From Polytrichum commune (taxonomy: Eukaryota; Streptophyta; Polytrichopsida; Polytrichales; Polytrichaceae), in contig OX485807.1 in NCBI GenBank assembly GCA_950295325.1, forward strand, positions 49,630,440 through 49,694,439: DNA of 64,000 bases, read 5' to 3'. Of this stretch, positions 1-26,724 are shown piece after piece (position 1 is the stretch's first letter; every line of letters starts with the position of its first letter). The position numbers and the translations under genes were made by a program. Under the pieces are notes generated by a model. That model saw nothing but the letters and a program-made list of their open reading frames with translations, was not told the DNA's origin and ran no database searches.

Positions 1-1014
1 GGTCGCTTTACGATCTTGTAGTGATTTTTTCCTCATTGTATAGCTCTCAATACCTTGTATAAAGTCTTTTCCTCATAATTATGTAACTAGGTATGGATCA
101 GTGTTGGACTGTATCGTTTTTATTTTAATACCATTTGGGTATCTATAATGAGGTTTTCACATTTTTTGATACCATTAGGATATGGGTACTTGAGGATACC
201 TTTGTTTTTGATATCATTTGGGTCTATAGACCTTGCAAAAACTTTTATACGTAAGTAAAATTATCCTAGTATCAATATGTCTTAGAATGTTATTGACCCA
301 AGTAAAGACTCCTTCACCTTGAGATATCCACCAAATATCAATATTTGACTGGTATTACAATCTTGATACCCATGGGTAGGTTCTTTGATACAATTATTGA
401 TGTTGATTATTGTTACCATGCATTGACTTATGTACTGGTCCAACATTGGTGTTGGCTTTGGGTGATCCCTCATGAGCTTTCACAGAAGTACCCAGGCTGC
501 ATTTTTTGCTATCTCATGCCCACATAGCTGTGGGTGATTGAGATCATCTTGTCCTGTGTCCAGTAGAAAATATTCAGAATTAGGGTAATTATTATTGCCT
601 CTTTGTTGCCCACTGCATCACTGACCTCCAGCAAAACTCACAGATTGCTCATCGGTATTCATCTCTATCAAGAGCAGAAGGGGAACAGAAGGACAAAAGT
701 TTTTTGCAATTGGTGGTGCTCCTTCGTTATTGAGAACTCCAAACCCCACACCCTTTCTCCTCATAACAGAGAGCAATCATGGTTTAGGTCATCAAATAAA
801 AGGAGATACTCAATTGTCGAGTTTTATTGCTGCAATTACCGTGAGCTGAACATCACTGGTGTCATCAATATTGAAGAAGGAAACACACATTTATTGAACA
901 GGTGTGGGATTGGATTGCCTTTGATACCTGTACATAATTTTTCTATAGAGAGGATTAGGCGTGTGAATGAAAGGCTCTTAAACTTTTGGGTGCTGGACTG
1001 CGGCATGACGGTCC
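1..1014. other. 5' flank of the mTERF gene
   Basis: No gene is recognised here. Between about 110 and 270 the sequence repeats short variants of a 'gatacca-tttgggta' phrase, which looks like local slippage or an old repeat. The promoter and 5' leader of the mTERF gene should lie in the right half. An open frame at 603-1124 has no recognisable domain and overlaps the mTERF start in another frame, so it was not called. Confidence 0.4.
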
Positions 1015-2490
1015 ATGGTTATGATTGCAACATATCTGAACAACATGCTGCCTCCTCATCCGGCTTTGCATCTGAAGCATCATGGAGCTATGGTACCAAG
1101 AGCAAGCAAGATGGAGGTTATTAGCTTATGTAGCCAGGCTTCATCACCAACCATCGGACCACTGTGGATGCAATTGCAACTACAAAAGTGCTATGGTGGG
1201 TCCGGCAAAGTGACTGTTCGAACAAGCTGCAATTTGATAGGTCAATCGAGTGTCATCGATGCAGAGCCCAGTGTATCGGACACCTCAGGGTGGCACATGG
1301 AGCCAGGCTTCTTGACATCAGCCAGTGATGAGCTCTCTGGATGGGAGAAAATCCATGGAGGGAAGAAGCAGTGTGCGTCTTCACAGAGCGCCCTTGGTCG
1401 CAAGTTTATCAAGAATCTGCAAGACTCCATGAATGTTGCCACTCACACGGAAGAAGGCGAAGAGGAAGGGGAGAGGTCATCTGGTTACATACCAGGTTCG
1501 GAGGCCACCAGTGCACATTCTCCTTGGTATAGTAATGAGGATGTGAAGACAAAGTATATGCAAGCGCGGCGACGCCAAGAATGTTCAGCAACAAGGCCTG
1601 ATAAGGTGAGGTGGCGGTTGTACTTGGAGGGTGTGCGGAGCCCACCTTGGGAAGAAAGAGCTCAATTGATGCGTAATCGATTGAGTTTTCAACAAAAGCT
1701 TCAGGAAAAGATTATGTTTCTGGAGAGCTTGGGGCTGGATTCAAGTACATTGCTTGCAGATTGTCCCTTGCTTAGCACCTGCCCTATTGACAACATCCAG
1801 GCTGTGGTTCAGTTCCTGGAAGATTGTCAGCTTCGCAGGAAGGATATTGTGCGCATCCTGACTCACAATCCCCACTTGTTGGGGCAGAGTGTGGACACCA
1901 CGTTTCGGCCAGTGGTGGAGTTTCTCGTCGACGAGGTCGGGTTGCAGGAGAATGATGTTGGCAAAGTTGTGAATCGATGTGCACGCATCCTAACGACAAG
2001 CATTGACGAGCGATTGCGTCCCACGAAGCAGTTCTTGCAATCTCTAGGATTCTCACACATGCCCATTGTGGTGTTGAATAATGCGACCCTTCTCACTTTC
2101 AGTATAGAAACCAAGCTCGTGCCAAAGATTGACTATCTTCAGAGCCTTGGCTTTACAAATGAGGAGGCAATTCGAGCTCTCATCCGGTTTCCTGCGATAT
2201 TCAATTACAGTGTTGAAAAGAACCTGCAGCCAAAGTATGCCTACCTTGTCGAAGACATGGGGCGGGGTTTGGACGATCTTAAGGCTTTCCCCCAGTACTT
2301 TGGTTACAGTTTGGAATCCCGAATCCAGCCCAGGCACCAGTTCCTTAAGAAGCAGAACCTGGTCCTCTCACTGCCCAATATTTTACGGCCAAGTGACGAG
2401 GAATTTTATGCACGAGTTCGAAATCGAAAGGTTGCAACCTCACCAGTCATTAGAAAAAGTGGCCACCTTTGTGAAAGTATGACGTCTTAG
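1015..2490 (+). CDS. mTERF-domain protein, probably organellar
   Basis: Single-exon frame of 491 residues. Residues about 233-455 hold successive mTERF helical repeats of roughly 33-36 residues, with recurring 'FLESLGL', 'RILTHNPHLL', 'FLQSLGF', 'ALIRFPAIFNYSVE' and 'AFPQYFGYSLE' motifs; the conserved Pro in the second helix of each repeat is visible. Plant mTERFs bind nucleic acid in plastids or mitochondria and act in organelle transcription, RNA processing or ribosome biogenesis. Residues 1-200 are low in structure, rich in Ser, Lys and Arg, and may hold a transit peptide. Met1 at 1015 is the first in frame; Met at 1021, 1045 or 1081 are equally possible starts. The C-terminal 'RPSDEEFYARV' is typical of plastid mTERFs. 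The exact subfamily was not determined. The last codons and 3' flank are tandemly duplicated. Confidence 0.85.
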   Translation: MVMIATYLNNMLPPHPALHLKHHGAMVPRASKMEVISLCSQASSPTIGPLWMQLQLQKCYGGSGKVTVRTSCNLIGQSSVIDAEPSVSDTSGWHMEPGFLTSASDELSGWEKIHGGKKQCASSQSALGRKFIKNLQDSMNVATHTEEGEEEGERSSGYIPGSEATSAHSPWYSNEDVKTKYMQARRRQECSATRPDKVRWRLYLEGVRSPPWEERAQLMRNRLSFQQKLQEKIMFLESLGLDSSTLLADCPLLSTCPIDNIQAVVQFLEDCQLRRKDIVRILTHNPHLLGQSVDTTFRPVVEFLVDEVGLQENDVGKVVNRCARILTTSIDERLRPTKQFLQSLGFSHMPIVVLNNATLLTFSIETKLVPKIDYLQSLGFTNEEAIRALIRFPAIFNYSVEKNLQPKYAYLVEDMGRGLDDLKAFPQYFGYSLESRIQPRHQFLKKQNLVLSLPNILRPSDEEFYARVRNRKVATSPVIRKSGHLCESMTS

Positions 2491-3092
2491 CTTCTCTCAC
2501 TTTCAGAAACTCAGTATTGTCGGGCTTGTTGAGTCCGTGTATCAACAATTCACTTACCCTCAGGTTCTGCTTTCTGTGTGTATGGATGTATATGATGTTG
2601 AGGTTGAACCATGCAAGAAGTAAAGGCAGCAGGACTTGGAAGGTTTTTTTGTGCGTTTAATGGGTTCTTTCATCCCCCTCGTGCTTTCTTTTTGATTGTC
2701 TATTTTGCTTGTTTCTCGAACTTCGTATGCCGTGAAGCAATTGGTGCAATCTAGATTTTGTAATCGGAGAGGAGCATAATATGTGAAAGTATGACATCCT
2801 AGCCTCTCCTCTTTCAGAAACTTAATGTTGTGGGGCTTGTTGAGTCCATGTATCAACAATTCTTTTACCCTTGGATTCTACTTTCTGTGTGTAATCGTAT
2901 ATGATGTTGAGGTTGAACCATACAAGACGTGAGGCAGCAGGATTAGGAATTTTTTATTTCTGTTCAATGGGGTGTCTTCCCCTTGTGCTGTCTCTTTAAT
3001 TTGCCTATTTTGCCAGTTACTCTTTGAAATTTTGTTTGCTGTGAAGCAATTGGTGCAATCTAGGTATTGTAATTGTAGAGAAGCATAATATG
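2471..3092 (+). repeat. Tandem duplication of mTERF stop codon and 3' flank
   Basis: Two diverged copies with a period of about 311 bp: 2471-2781 and 2782-3092. Both begin with 'gtgaaagtatgac', which in the first copy encodes the last residues of the mTERF protein and its TAG stop, and both end near 'gcataatatgtg'. Shared blocks include 'gttgaggttgaaccat' and 'gtgaagcaattggtgcaatc'. The second copy therefore carries a displaced copy of the stop-proximal sequence and a full second set of 3' UTR or polyadenylation signals. Confidence 0.85.
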
Positions 3093-3640
3093 TGCATAAC
3101 TTGAGAGAGGTTAAATAGTAGTTTTGAATTTAAACTTACTCCTTGCCAACGTTGGACTTCCATCAACAAGGTGTAGGCTATAATCTGATTTTTCATGGGG
3201 TTTTAATATATCAAACTCTCAATGACTTCATATCACGGCTGGCACATGATAGGTTTCCCACAGATTTTGACCTGACATATTTTTCTTCAAATTGTTTCAT
3301 GTACTTCAGAGATACAGGTGATGAGGTTTTTAGCTTCCATAATTTTTAGTGAAGCTGCATTCGCATGTGTGTATACTTGTCTATTTCAGATTGATATCCT
3401 TTTACTTGACCACATGGTCTGCTGGACTTTCAACACTAGCAAAGTTGGAAGTGCCACATTCCACCACTGGAGTGCTGATGCGCAGTATTTAAGCATCAAG
3501 CTGATGAAAATAAGTGATTAACACTCCAATCGCAAGAACTGGCTGGTGGCACTTGTTTGGACAAGTTTTGCCAAATGCCCACACCCTGAACACCATTCAG
3601 AGGTAGTGATTCAAGGTTATACTTCCGAAACTCATACGCC

Positions 3641-4482: not shown

Positions 4483-5688
4483 TTAAGGCATTTCGTTCTT
4501 CGCATTTTCTGCTACAGCCATTGCGAAGAGACCACGACCACCTTGGTGGTGGTGGTGGTGGTGGTGGTGGTGCTGCTGTGGCTGATTTGGCCACAGCGAT
4601 GAGTTGGCTTCAAAGCCTGAGGGCGATGGCTCTGAAAAACAGCTATCCATAAGTGCAGGTGACACTTCTCCAGCATCGAACATGGCAGCTTCTTCTCCTC
4701 CAACTTCTCCTTCAACCTCTTCTCCCTCTTCCGGTAGGGTTAAGCTTCTCACGGCGGGGAGCTTTTCCTTCACCTTATTGGACAACCGATCACGACCTAA
4801 CTCTTGTTTCGAATTGGAGATCGTCAGTGAGTCCCCTGCCCCTGGATCGGCGTCTTTTATCTGCACAGATTGGGTTAACTCAACCGACGAGGTTGCACCA
4901 TCGTCCTGCTGCTGCTGGCTGGTTAACACTGACACACGGTTGAGGAGCATTTCATACAACCCGTCCAACCGTTGCATCATGTACTGCAGATCGTGGACGT
5001 CGTAGCTCGTGATGGCCTTCTGCCACCAGAAAGGGTACGAGAGTAGCCTATGCTGAAGCTCCCTCTCCGAAGCCAACATCTGCACCACCTGTTGGAATTT
5101 AAAGAGTCTTAAGTTAGCTCAACCACCAAAACAAAAGGTCTAATTAATTGACCTTATACATTCTAGATGAGGAACTTAAGCTTCAGAGTAGATGAACCAC
5201 CAAGTGATTGATGGTGTTCTAGTATCTTGACAAAATTAGTGTCAAGAGCCTACAAGTGTAATCTAGATATGCATAAAAGAAGCTCGGAGGTGAGAGGAAA
5301 ATTATTAGCTTATGTGACTTCCTTCTCTAAGGTGGGGTGGAGAGTCTCTCGCATTTGTTTATTTATTTATTTTTGTCTCTAATTCTAACATGGTATCAGA
5401 GCTGATATATCCTTAGATAGATGAGATCTGATACTTATTGGAATTCGAAGGGTCTAAGTTAGCTTAGTCACCAAAAGGTCTCAAATGACCGTATACATAC
5501 TAGATGAGGAACTTGGAATTAAGAGTACAAAAAAACCAAGATTGATGTTCTAGTATCTTGACACGAAGTGTTAACAAGAGATTACAGGTGTAATCTCCAA
5601 ATGAATAAAAGGTGAGGCTCAGGGTGAGAGGAAGATCATCAACTTATGTAACTTCCTTCTCTATGGTTAGCTGGAGAGCCTTTCTCAC

Positions 5689-5728
<40 letters not shown>

Positions 5729-6046
5729 CTGCTTCTGTTGCTGCTGCAGGGCCTGCACTTGCTGCACCTTCTGGTGTGCTGTCTCTGCGACACTTGAAGA
5801 GTGTTCGGAGTCAGGGGAGCCGGAGGAGCAGTCTCCTACAGTCTTGTCGATCACGTATTCGATGGACGGGTGACCGAATGCGAAGGCTTTCCCTGCCTGC
5901 GAGAACACGATCACGCCCACGTCGGAGCCGCAGAGGATTGATAGCTCGCTGGCCTTTTTGATCAATCCCCCTCTGCGTTTGGAGAAGCATACTTGGCGAG
6001 CGCTGGGGTTCTCGATCTTCTTAATTTCTATCTTGGCACGTCCCAT
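4483..6046 (-). CDS. Type I (M-alpha, AGL62-like) MADS-box transcription factor
   Basis: Two coding exons: 6046-5729 (106 codons) and 5088-4483 (201 codons plus stop), 307 residues in total, joined in phase 0. Residues 1-58 are a MADS DNA-binding and dimerisation domain ('[12 protein letters not shown]', '[20 protein letters not shown]', '[15 protein letters not shown]'); the '[13 protein letters not shown]' ending is typical of the M-alpha group of type I factors, which in flowering plants act in gametophyte and endosperm. There is no type II K-domain. Residues about 107-165 form an amphipathic region with 'PFWWQKAI', comparable to the WW-containing segment of AGL62-like proteins. The C-terminus is acidic and Ser-rich and ends near a nine-His tract. 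The intron is an LTR retrotransposon. If it is retained, the frame runs through an Arg-Glu repeat to a stop 29 codons later, leaving a MADS-domain-only protein. Confidence 0.88.
4545..4572 (-). repeat. GGT/ACC trinucleotide run encoding poly-His
   Basis: A run of GGT triplets on the + strand encodes nine consecutive His residues near the C-terminus of the MADS protein, preceded by Gln residues. Such runs are slippage-prone and are expected to vary in length between individuals. Confidence 0.9.
5090..5724 (+). mobile_element. Miniature LTR retrotransposon forming the MADS intron
   Basis: The left LTR is 5090-5390 (about 301 bp), starting TGTTGGAATT and ending AATTCTAACA. A primer-binding site complementary to initiator tRNA-Met (TGGTATCAGAGC) follows immediately at 5391. 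Only about 46 bp of internal sequence separates it from the second LTR, about 5437-5724, which aligns along its length but loses its last ~25 bp into a CT microsatellite. There is no gag or pol, so it is TRIM-like. The flanking 5-bp duplications are ccacc (5085-5089) and ctacc (5725-5729), with one mismatch. The element lies antisense to the MADS gene. Confidence 0.85.
5391..5402 (+). other. tRNA-iMet primer-binding site
   Basis: TGGTATCAGAGC directly follows the TG...CA-bounded left LTR. This is the standard minus-strand primer-binding site of many plant Copia-type and TRIM elements. Confidence 0.85.
5692..5726. repeat. CT microsatellite at the MADS splice donor
   Basis: About 17 CT dinucleotides. 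On the MADS strand this reads as GA repeats directly after the GT donor (CAG|GTAGAG), so repeat length affects intron sequence only. It has replaced the end of the second LTR. Confidence 0.9.
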
Positions 6047-6229: not shown

Positions 6230-8570
6230 AGTTTAGGTGCACAGTGTGTACAAGATTACGATTGCTCCGAGATCTTGCATTCCATGTCAATAACAAAATT
6301 CTCTACCCTCACTTCTCTGTAAGTGCGAATCCACCTGGTGAAATTAGTGGTCATTGTGGTGACATATGAATTTCATACATCGAGATTGAAAATGTATTCG
6401 GTGGAGAAAATGTAACTGCAATGTATCACACATGGATACGAAACTTATTAGATCTTATGCCAAGATGTTGTTGTTCGGTTTGTAACTGTACAAGAGCTTC
6501 TAACACCTCCGAGAAGCTTGACAGCGAGGATTAACTACAAAGTGTGAACCGCCAGACAGCTAGATACACCCCCTCAAATTCTTCCTGCAAACAAGCAATT
6601 AAAATGCAGTAATTACATGAAAGTAGTGTCGATAGATGAAATTTCTCTGCCTGCTTCCAAGAAGCAGTAGATTCATTGCAAACAGTCTGAGTCCACCAAG
6701 TGAACAGGATTTACAAGTACTCCGAGATCTCTCATTCCATGTTAATTAACAAAGTTGTCCAGCCTCAAATTTTCTGTAGATCTAATCATTAAAAGATGTT
6801 CTTAAATTTTCATCAATTTCTGACTAGTAACAACAAGAGATTGTTTTACCTCAAAGCACTTTCCAGAGCTTTCCAACCAAATGAGGACCAGATGCGCCCT
6901 CAAATTCTTCCTGCAAACAAGCACAAAACTGAACTAATCACATGAGAGTAGTATCGATAGCTGTAAATTTCCTCTACTCCCAGTAAGAGCTTCAAACAAT
7001 CTGGGTCCACCATGTGTACATACTTAAAAGTGCTCCGAGATGTCGGATTCCATGTCAACAAAAGACTTCTCTTACCCTGACTTCGCTGTAGATCGTCTTA
7101 TGTAGAGATTTAATTTTTGTTCATCAGTTTCTAACTGCCCAAGAGGGGCCCAAGAGGGGCCCAAGAGGTTCTTCTCCTACCTCGAAGCATGCTATGTATG
7201 AAATGACACACTCCTACAACCTTGGCAGCGAGTGTAAATGAGTTAATTGCGCTCCTAAAACTTGTACTTCATGCAAAAATAAGATTTATACCCTGACTTA
7301 CTTTATTTGCAGATCTTGTGCAAAGGTTTTTTTGTTGATGTTCATCAGTTTCTATCTTAAGGGAGCAACAAGATCTTACTCCACCTCGAAGCAACTTATC
7401 TCTCGCATTGCATGTCAACAACAAGCTGATTTTCTACCCTGACTATTTCTCTGCAGATCTTGTGCAGACATTTTTGTTGAATATTTCATCAGATTCTGAG
7501 TTAGTAACACAAGCTGTCTAGCTTCTCCACAATTCCAACCAGGCTGCAGGACCACAACACTCGGCGAACGACGTGTGCGTGAAATGACATGAAATGGCAC
7601 TGCCTAAAGCTTGCAGGCAGCGACAATGCATTAACTATGTCAAGAGCAAGGGCGACCTCAGGACGCAAATCGCACCTCGGAGAAGCTTGAACCACCAGGC
7701 AGCTACATACACCCTCAAATTCTTCCTGCGAACAGGCACGAGAAAGAATACAGTAATTTACATGAGAGTAGCGACCAACGAACTTCAAACAGTCGACTCC
7801 ACGATGTGTCCACATTTATTCAAGTGCTCCAAACTCTCGCGTTCCATGTCAACAACCAAATTTTCTCTACCTTGACTTTCTCCAGGTAGTCTTATGCAGG
7901 AAAAAAAAATGATGTTCTTGATGATGATGAGGTTCATCAGTTTCTGACTACACAGGAATCTCTTCCACCCCGAAAAAAGCAGTAGTCAGGCTGAAATGAA
8001 AAGTAATTAGGTGAAAATGGCGGCACTGGCAATAATAAGGTTGGAAGCGAGAATGAATCAATCAACTAAGTGAACCTAAAGGACGTAAATCTCACCTTGG
8101 AGAGGCTTGGACCGCCAGGCAGCTCCCTCAAATTCTACCTGCAAACAAGCACAACAAAGTATGCACCAATTTGCATGAGAGTAGTGAGCACGATGATATG
8201 TCCAGAATTACAAGTGCTCCAAAACCTCGCATTCCATGTCAACAACCAAATTCTGTCTACGTTGACTTTCGGTGCAGATCTTATGCAGAAAAAAAAACAG
8301 ATGATGTTGTTGTTGTTGATAATTATGAACTTCCTCAGCTTCTAACTACACAAGAGGGGAGCTGAGCTTCTTCTACCTCGAACGAAGAAGCAGTCAGGCT
8401 GAAATCAAATTGAAAAGTGGGTGAGATGGCGGCACTGCCAATATCAATAATAAGGTTGACAGCGAGAATGAATGAATGCATGAATCAACTACAAAGTGAG
8501 AGGACGTGAATCTCACGTTGGAGAGAGAGGGGCTTGAACTTTCTAAATCTCACCCCCGCTATGCAGACGT
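6230..8570 (-). repeat. Degenerate tandem array upstream of the MADS gene
   Basis: At least six copies of a 310-450 bp unit. The anchor phrase 'cattccatgtcaa' or a close variant recurs near 6277, 6731, 7043, 7410, 7839 and 8229. A second anchor, 'caaattcttcctgcaaaca', recurs near 6574, 6901, 7715 and 8129. Read on the MADS strand, the second anchor has the form of a short exon: 'tttgcag' then about 45 nt, then a donor such as AAG|GTGAGATT. The array may therefore be a series of duplicated 5' leader exons or promoter modules of the MADS gene. No coding potential was seen. Copies differ by many substitutions and indels, so it is old. Confidence 0.7.
7137..7168. repeat. 11-bp minisatellite, three units
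   Basis: Three head-to-tail copies of 'gcccaagaggg', the last lacking a base, inside the larger array. Confidence 0.9.
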
Positions 8571-24849: not shown

Positions 24850-25918
24850 CCTTGTTACAAACACACAAATACCCCATCAATCATCTTTATACAAGAAACC
24901 AAACTAACAGCCACAAAATTCACAAAACATATATGAGGATTATTCCAATAGCATAATTTTCTTTAAAAGTTACACATAATATTACACAGATCATGCATCA
25001 AAAAATGACATGCAAAGGCCACAGAGGAGGTCTACTCACACTAATTCACAACAATTATGCATTTCCCAACAACGTTTCTAAAATATCCACTACGGCCAAC
25101 ATATAACCGTTTCTCCAGATAGTCCGAATTGCAAATCAACCAGTCAACCAATGATAAATATTTATATGCCACCTCACGAGGAAGACCTACACCTCATACC
25201 TACCACACAAACCACCATATTGGACCAAATAAACACTCACCTTGACCACACATATATACAAGGTGGAGACTTCAATTGCGATATTTATTCAATGGGCGGA
25301 CAAAATGACCAACCACAACACCACTACAAATTGAAGATTACCAAAAATAATCCAAACTCTATTACAATACTAGTAACACCAAATCAAAATTGGTATCACA
25401 ACTTTAACCCCCATATCACTATATTCGTTAATTTGAGACTTTCTCTTGTCTCAAATTAATATATGGACCACAACAACATGGTCTAATGTTTGGGTCGTCC
25501 TACCTAAACCATCTTGATATGAGTTCTTAATTGGGTTCTTGATATGAACACCCGCTTCAAAGTATTTGCATCTTACAACATTCTCCAATATCTGTGTGAC
25601 TTTATCCATGTTCTTATATTTGTAACTGTCTCAAAGTGCTGAAAATTTCCCAAATTAACAAATATAGTGATCCATAATGGACCCTTCCTAGACTCACATG
25701 TCATCTCACACTTCAAAGCAAACACAATCACTTACGAAGAACCAACAAACCCGCCAAAATTGAAAATAAAACCTAGAATTGAAAATTGTGTCCTCCATAT
25801 ACTTTGCATCCATCAAAAAAATAAATTCATTGGATTTGATGAACATACACAACAAATGAACACCATTGCCAACACCCTACAAGTTTCCGCAATGTTCACA
25901 AAATTACGCCATCTATGA
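24850..25918 (+). pseudogene. LINE endonuclease domain, interrupted
   Basis: 'FIQETKLTATKF' near 24880 is the catalytic Q-E-T-K motif of apurinic-type LINE endonucleases. 'GHRGGLLTLIHN' follows near 25020, then 'INIYMPPHEED' at 25154, then 'GGDFNCDI' near 25263 (the G-D-F-N motif). A MITE at 25415-25671 interrupts the frame; beyond it 'HNGPFLDSHVISHFK' continues in the frame expected for the S-D-H-x-P region. Stops occur between the QETK and GGLL motifs. Confidence 0.65.
25415..25671 (+). mobile_element. 257-bp MITE inside the LINE endonuclease
   Basis: The terminal inverted repeats are ATCACTATATTCGTTAATTT at the left and the complement of ATCACTATATTTGTTAATTT at the right, about 22 bp. The flanks carry a direct CCAT at 25411-25414 and 25672-25675. 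Removing the element plus one CCAT joins AACCCCCAT to AATGGACCC and keeps one open frame through the junction, which supports these boundaries. Confidence 0.75.
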
Positions 25919-25959
25919 CACTGGACACCCCTAAAAACCACAATACAAAATGTTCTAAA

Positions 25960-26724
25960 CTCACATACCCACCCCCCCCCCCCCACCCCCAACCAATTAC
26001 CAACCTAGAATACCCACTACAATTATGTTACTATACAAATGGATCATTCAAGCCACCCAAAGAAATACCCCAAGGACATTGGAAACGTGAAAAAATAGGC
26101 TATGGCATCTATAGCCCCATCCAAAATCTAAAAATTGCTAAAAGATTACAAGGGCTGCAAAACATTCTAAGAGCAAAAATTATGGATTTACACCACACCC
26201 TCTTACTCTTCACCACTACATCCGGAGGCAAACCAACCCATATCTTCATAGATGGCCTTAATGTCTTGTATGTACTAAACACCCAAATTAAACATCCCAC
26301 TATATATAGCAGCCAACAAAATAAAAATGTCCTTGAATCAATGGTCCAAATGCTACAATCCCGCATAGAAACTACCACACCCCACAAAATTAGAGCCCAC
26401 GCTAATATCAAAGGCAATGAACAAGCGGACACACTAGTCAAATGGGGATGCAAATTAGACCATAGAAATGCCGAAGCACCACATGAACACGCACACCCTA
26501 CACCATATTACCTCCAAAAAGATTTGTGGCACTCAATGCAAGAAACACCAGACAAAGGCCCATCCGACACCTTCAAAAACACATCCTCAAATATGACAAA
26601 AAAAACAAAACCTAGCAAAGAGCAAACACATCAATTACACAAATGGCTCAAAAATGATGATATAGATAGAACATTGTCGATTGATTTTTGGAAAAATCCC
26701 ACTATTGGAAGTCTTTTTTATTGA
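25960..26724 (+). pseudogene. LINE RNase H domain
   Basis: 'LCYYTNGSF' near 26019 corresponds to the first RNase H motif (Y-T-D-G-S), with the catalytic Asp replaced by Asn. 'IFIDGLNVLYVL' near 26243 gives the D of the third motif, and 'KIRAHANIKGNEQADTLVKWG' spread over 26386-26450 gives the fourth (G-N-x-x-A-D). The frame is otherwise open to a TGA-free end at 26722. It begins after a 13-bp poly-C run at 25972-25984. The minus-strand LINE at 52.6-53.1 kb carries a homologous domain. Confidence 0.7.

Follow-up and report, generated by a model that had tools for sequence, protein, structure and literature searches.

The window, a stretch of 64,000 nucleotides from Polytrichum commune (contig OX485807.1, positions 49,630,440 to 49,694,439), carries on its reverse strand a MADS-box gene whose predicted intron coincides almost letter for letter with an LTR retrotransposon. 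This raises the question of how such an intron could be born, and whether the gene is a single case in its genome.

The MADS-box gene and the element in its predicted intron

Exon 1 encodes a MADS domain (Pfam SRF-TF PF00319, E 7.9e-26), the SRF-type DNA-binding domain that marks a Type I (M-alpha) MADS-box gene, and we take the gene to be of the M-alpha class with a WW-type C-terminal motif (Type I MADS-box). M-alpha MADS genes usually have no introns. Exon 2 gave nothing above the cut-off against Pfam. The features of the locus are, in the order of the forward strand:

4483-5088, minus strand: exon 2 of the MADS-box gene, 606 nt including the stop, 201 codons plus stop
5085-5089, no strand assigned: target copy on the acceptor side, CCACC, read as GGTGG in the gene, with the first G as second letter of the acceptor AG
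5089-5728, minus strand: predicted intron, 640 nt, phase 0; frame restored on joining
5090-5390, plus strand: LTR1, TGTTGG...TAACA; read in gene direction, its TG end gives the acceptor's CA
5113-5117, minus strand: branch-site-like motif CTAAC, about 25 nt before the acceptor; putative function
5391-5402, plus strand: primer-binding-site motif TGGTATCAGAGC, exact match, directly after LTR1
5403-5435, plus strand: rest of the short interior (whole interior 5391-5435, 45 nt)
5436-5724, plus strand: LTR2, with a TC run at its end; LTR terminus lost
5725-5729, no strand assigned: target copy on the donor side, CTACC, read as GGTAG in the gene and altered relative to CCACC at 5085-5089
5729-6046, minus strand: exon 1 of the MADS-box gene, 318 nt, 106 codons, ATG at 6046; open frame

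Excision of 5728-5089 as an intron is a prediction from the sequence. The earlier note had described the intron as the element plus one 5-bp target copy, 640 nt in all, with the donor GT in one target copy and the acceptor AG composed of the LTR terminal base and the first target G; this was confirmed base by base, the right LTR end being altered. The predicted intron starts with GTAGAG and its 3' end reads TCCAACAG / TTCCAACAG. The restored frame that had been claimed was also found: on predicted splicing exon 1 and exon 2 join as AAGCAG|GTGGTGCAG, in frame and in phase 0. Read unspliced, the gene runs into a stop 29 codons past the junction.

Two direct repeats with a spacing of ~330-345 nt fill most of the intron and form an element of ~635 nt with the order LTR, primer site, interior, LTR. 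With two LTRs, a short interior, a size below 1500 bp and no coding capacity, the element (and likewise the copy L013 described below) has the size and structure of a TRIM, and the tRNA primer site after LTR1 is a TRIM feature as well. We assume that TGGTATCAGAGC is a tRNA-Met-type primer-binding site; by chance, 0.32 matches with at most one mismatch are expected across the window. A polypurine tract before LTR2 was not evident by eye in the 45-nt interior. Terminal inverted repeats, a feature of DNA transposons, are absent; the LTRs are direct and only the TG..CA dinucleotides are inverted.

The left end in the window is a true element end, because other copies in the genome begin at the same TG with differing flanks. 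The right-hand end is not intact: LTRs of the family end in ..TAACA or ..GCA (window LTR1, L007, L014 and L013), but in LTR2 the TC repeat runs directly into CTACC. The difference between GGTAG and GGTGG may thus go back to a small deletion, of 6 bp, where LTR and target meet, instead of a point change. The GG-to-AG change that had been proposed to help the donor is indeed seen, but it would be explained equally well if the LTR had lost its terminus on that side. Similarly, the GA repeat at the donor is present but not peculiar to this site; it corresponds to the TC run near the LTR 3' end, which is common in the family.

Rfam and ARAGORN scans of the window found nothing. The MADS-box gene is adjoined by an open frame of 493 codons (1009-2490, plus strand) with an mTERF domain (E 9.2e-45), and a tandem repeat with a 309-bp period is present in two copies at 2470-3094. 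Upstream of the MADS-box gene, at 6259-8409, there are diverged direct repeats with ~300-800 bp spacing, and a frame at 25843-26724 (plus strand) has a weak RNase H domain (E 1.8e-6) and is perhaps a retroelement remnant.

The LTR family and the splice design in four further genes

The earlier note had named the rest of the genome as the place to look for the same LTR, and the search was successful. With the window element as query, at least 52 matches were obtained (40 of 128 candidates scored), and the splice design of the window recurs in four further genes, in which the same LTR family lies antisense: an isocitrate lyase (L023), a GH32 invertase (L022), a class-3 lipase (L013) and L012, whose protein had no match against Pfam. 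All five intact genes, the window gene included, have the acceptor CAACA|G, a gene-strand target GGT.. and a restored frame; the element is antisense in 5/5, a count to be read with the fact that the searches were built on the antisense pattern. The predicted introns are:

Window: 640 nt, phase 0, target AG|GT, donor GTAGAG
L012: 537 nt, phase 0, target AG|GT, donor GTGAGA
L013: 520 nt, phase 2, target AG|GT, raw donor GTACTG
L022: 366 nt, phase 2, target TG|GT, donor GTAAGT
L023: 289 nt, phase 0, target AG|GT, donor GTGGAG

The donors of L013 and L023 look weak; those of L012 and L022 are presumably nearer to the consensus. The five predicted introns match the LTR family with ~66-85% similarity per matched piece, and at least four similar predicted introns, as expected of introners, are therefore present in different, unrelated genes of one genome. 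Since this LTR end occupies the corresponding splice position in four more genes as well, the pattern in the window exceeds what chance would give. In L012, as in the window, the LTR terminus is missing, as though 6 bp had been lost. L023 (C3:39778500-39780200) has at its intron start an imperfect exon duplication of ~18 bp, beginning with GTGGAGCATCTGTT, instead of the usual 5 bp; its acceptor fits the rule, and the donor side may have arisen differently. L021 (C4:28530000-28531600), a decayed isocitrate-lyase copy, carries the same LTR at the same codon, with other sequence inside.

Copies elsewhere document the mode of integration. L007 is a solo LTR with GAGAA on both sides (a 5-bp target duplication), and L013 is a complete copy, LTR, primer site and LTR, with GTACC on both sides, a perfect 5-bp duplication. 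The primer motif TGGTATCAGAGC is found in L013 with one mismatch and is absent, within 2 mismatches, from the introns of L012, L022 and L023.

In L012 and L013, which were among the first copies fetched, ACC precedes TGTTGG as it does in the window. When the genome was searched for the LTR start with ACC ahead of it, allowing up to 3 mismatches, 28 matches were obtained, against 1 in the reversed control, and ACC was intact in 6 of the 28: the window, L023, L021, L022, L013 and L041. Two other pattern searches gave 7 and 43 matches with 0 and 0 in the reversed controls. A pattern with a variable gap was not discriminating by itself (4 matches against 3 in the reversed control); its matches, the window, L012, L022 and L023, were recognised by their LTRs. 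For a census of reading frames, 54 left ends were available from 49 fetched loci and the window, of which 53 remained after L041 was left out. The antisense frame was open to the exon or flank end in 5/6 left ends preceded by ACC but in only 1/47 others, L011 (Fisher p 1.2e-5, for a set that is partly selected, as some copies were sought by ACC; it also includes L021 and L023, which go back to a duplication, and 2 of the 47 are internal LTRs belonging to the same elements). In the 43-match search, which did not require ACC and from which 42 of 43 loci were fetched, 2/2 ACC copies were located in frames, against 0/40 others.

Several candidates were discarded. L041 (C1:40494210) fits ACC-TGTTGG at 3 mismatches but is a sequence unrelated to the LTR family and outside any long frame. 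L011 (C1:42472600-42474000) has a long open antisense frame and no acceptor, the copy being located just ahead of where the coding sequence of an ALMT gene probably begins. The open sense frames of L049 and L001 (147 and 141 codons) look non-coding by eye, and L024, with ACT before TGTTGG, has no coding context.

The joined proteins were then compared with known enzymes and with paralogues. Across the junction, the spliced proteins gave gap-free alignments to solved structures of isocitrate lyases (L023), GH32 enzymes (L022) and phospholipase A1 (L013), and each junction falls within a matched Pfam domain (ICL, Glyco_hydro_32N and Lipase_3, respectively). Paralogues in the same genome cross the junction without an intron in 1/1 case for isocitrate lyase (L066), 5/5 for invertase (one of these matches contains a stop) and 4/5 fetched for lipase, the fifth lipase match being left uncounted because it begins 7 residues before the junction. 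For L012 it was 3/3, with weak alignments (52, 35 and 32% identity) and, in the closest paralogue, small gaps near the junction. Paralogues of four genes (L012, L013, L022 and L023) thus point to sites that were formerly intronless. The fifth gene is different: a genome search with the window's exon 2 at E 1 revealed no further copy, apart from two weak matches, a second copy of the gene was not found in the genome as an empty site, and three fetched MADS loci share with it the DNA-binding domain as their sole common part. As no exon 2 paralogue was found in the genome, the empty site of the window gene is inferred, and with it the intronless state of the MADS-box gene before the insertion.

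Origin of the introns, their age and competing explanations

These data argue strongly that the window intron was born by antisense insertion of a TRIM-like LTR element into the MADS frame, and that the family did the same, in the manner of introners, in at least four more genes. The earlier note had already proposed an LTR retrotransposon insertion as the source of the intron, with the element's ends as splice sites, and this view is now backed by the four further genes with their intronless paralogues. We infer the following order of events. A TRIM-like LTR element would insert antisense into the open frame at the proto-splice site CAG|GTGG, and integration would duplicate 5 bp, GGTGG. In the upstream target copy the old GT would become the donor. 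An LTR element bounded by TG...CA finishes in CA on either strand, so that CA and the first target G would make the acceptor CAG; a GGTNN target would give the donor GT in the other copy, and the intron would amount to the element plus one target copy. The antisense LTR end would add TTCCAACA and, in the window copy, also the branch-site-like CTAAC. Splicing would then take out the element with one target copy and restore the frame. The donor sides would have been altered later, in the window probably by a small deletion.

CTAAC was found 24-28 nt before the element end in 14/53 copies, against 0.95 in shuffles, and the exact motif is present in only 3/5 introns; the antisense LTR end is thus a putative source of the acceptor and, sometimes, of a branch-site-like motif. 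A wider proposal, to which we incline with some reserve, is that this land plant has a true introner in the family, whose antisense LTR end would bring most of a 3' splice module ready-made (often CTAAC, then TTCCAACA) and require only a target G, and that any LTR insertion with a GGTNN duplication can give an exact intron. If so, LTR-born introns could be traced across plants by the rule TG...CA plus GGTNN.

An older history could be imagined, in which ordinary introns already occupied these sites, LTR copies inserted into them, the remaining intron was lost and the element came to reach the acceptor by chance. TRIMs and SMARTs do often sit in introns, according to the excerpted texts of PMC3281118 and PMC4717578, but the LTR terminal base is at the acceptor in 5/5 genes, target copies flank the element (perfectly at L013) and the four genes that could be tested have paralogues without an intron there, which makes this course of events very improbable.

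A slightly smaller probability still is given to the view that the genes are pseudogenes broken by the element, unspliced, with a coincidental in-frame GT/AG join. The decayed isocitrate-lyase copy with the same LTR, and the weak donors of L013 and L023, would fit this, but the frames are open on both sides in all five genes and the gap-free alignments to enzymes across the junctions speak against it. So does the constraint on the isocitrate-lyase exons: L023 and its paralogue L066 gave dN/dS values of 0.056 for exon 1 (118 codons) and 0.053 for exon 2 (168 codons), at dS values near saturation (1.6 and 1.1) and over a time that includes the period before the insertion. By this measure of ~0.05, both exons are under strong constraint. 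For lipase exon 2, dN/dS was 0.17 against L056; against L057, dS was saturated.

The age of the insertion bears on the same point. LTR1 and LTR2 of the window differ at 58/242 aligned sites (K2P 0.29) with six gap events, and the two LTRs of L013 gave 0.42 on a shorter alignment. As a clock this is rough, because the two window LTRs do not pair as closest relatives (rank 4 of 52 in a star-like family). Taken at face value, the divergence speaks against a recent insertion, and the word 'recent' that had been attached to the gain has to be dropped. When neutral evolution of the window's exon 2 was simulated (5000 copies) at the full LTR age, 3.6% of the copies were stop-free and 0/5000 were without stops and frameshifts; the latter fraction rose to 1.5% at half, 11% at a quarter and 39% at a tenth of that age. 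Provided that the LTR age is correct, neutral evolution would have broken exon 2, which is open; this speaks against a pseudogene.

Equally improbable is that some introns, L023 foremost, started as a tandem duplication of an exon piece with AGGT and received the LTR later: the imperfect ~18-bp duplication of L023 and the recognition of tandem AGGT duplication as a route of intron gain (excerpts of the review PMC3443670) are in its favour, but it fails to explain why five genes have precisely the LTR terminus at their acceptor, and why L013 and L007 show TG..CA ends together with 5-bp duplications.

Relation to introners, TRIMs and single insertions

Antisense LTR insertion, the favoured origin, has parallels in several known systems. 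Introners as surveyed by Gozashti et al. 2022 (PMC9860276) are, in the excerpted text, families that resemble DNA transposons in their target duplications and terminal inverted repeats, or that show neither; the same excerpts report them absent from land plants and do not mention LTRs. Like introners, the present family is a mobile-element family whose copies are (predicted) introns in different genes, with splice sites supplied by target duplications and element ends; unlike those described, it is an LTR retrotransposon, it resides in a plant, and its splicing is predicted from sequence. The mechanism proposed for the window corresponds to the proto-splice transposon model in the review PMC3443670, as excerpted, in which insertion at AGGT lets the target duplication supply donor and acceptor. 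These excerpts list 35 events (Oryza, Drosophila, Oikopleura, Zea), leave open whether any transposon is predisposed to intron-making, and contain neither the term LTR nor retrotransposon.

The closest single case is ONSEN in Arabidopsis, where splicing removed the full length of a newly inserted exonic Copia LTR element (PMC12112155, in the part of the text available, where the exonic gene is AT5G32415 in the results section and AT4G34215 in the discussion). ONSEN is, on that text, one exonic case in laboratory plants, whereas here a set of old, retained predicted introns is found. Among the matches listed for open-licence PMC titles and abstracts, none reported a land-plant set of introns made by LTR elements. 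Introners and TRIMs were already known; new here, against those listed matches, would be an LTR-retrotransposon family as a candidate introner in a land plant. The birth of spliceosomal introns in land plants is poorly documented and one LTR family would show one route: there are five candidate cases, for four of which intronless paralogues were found, and the sequence rule is clear, which makes the question directly testable with RNA and sister species.

With TRIM and SMART elements, as excerpted from PMC4717578 and PMC3281118, the family shares small size, LTRs, a primer site, 5-bp duplications, lack of coding sequence, solo LTRs and tandem arrays. The elements described in these excerpts are mostly located inside existing introns or near genes and alter gene structure; the excerpts do not speak of exact new introns in coding sequence, which the present family is predicted to form. 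L014 (C1:70327000-70329000), where there is no long frame and GGTTG precedes one unit, is a tandem array of ~3 LTR units and resembles the tandemly arrayed TRIMs in the excerpts of PMC4717578.
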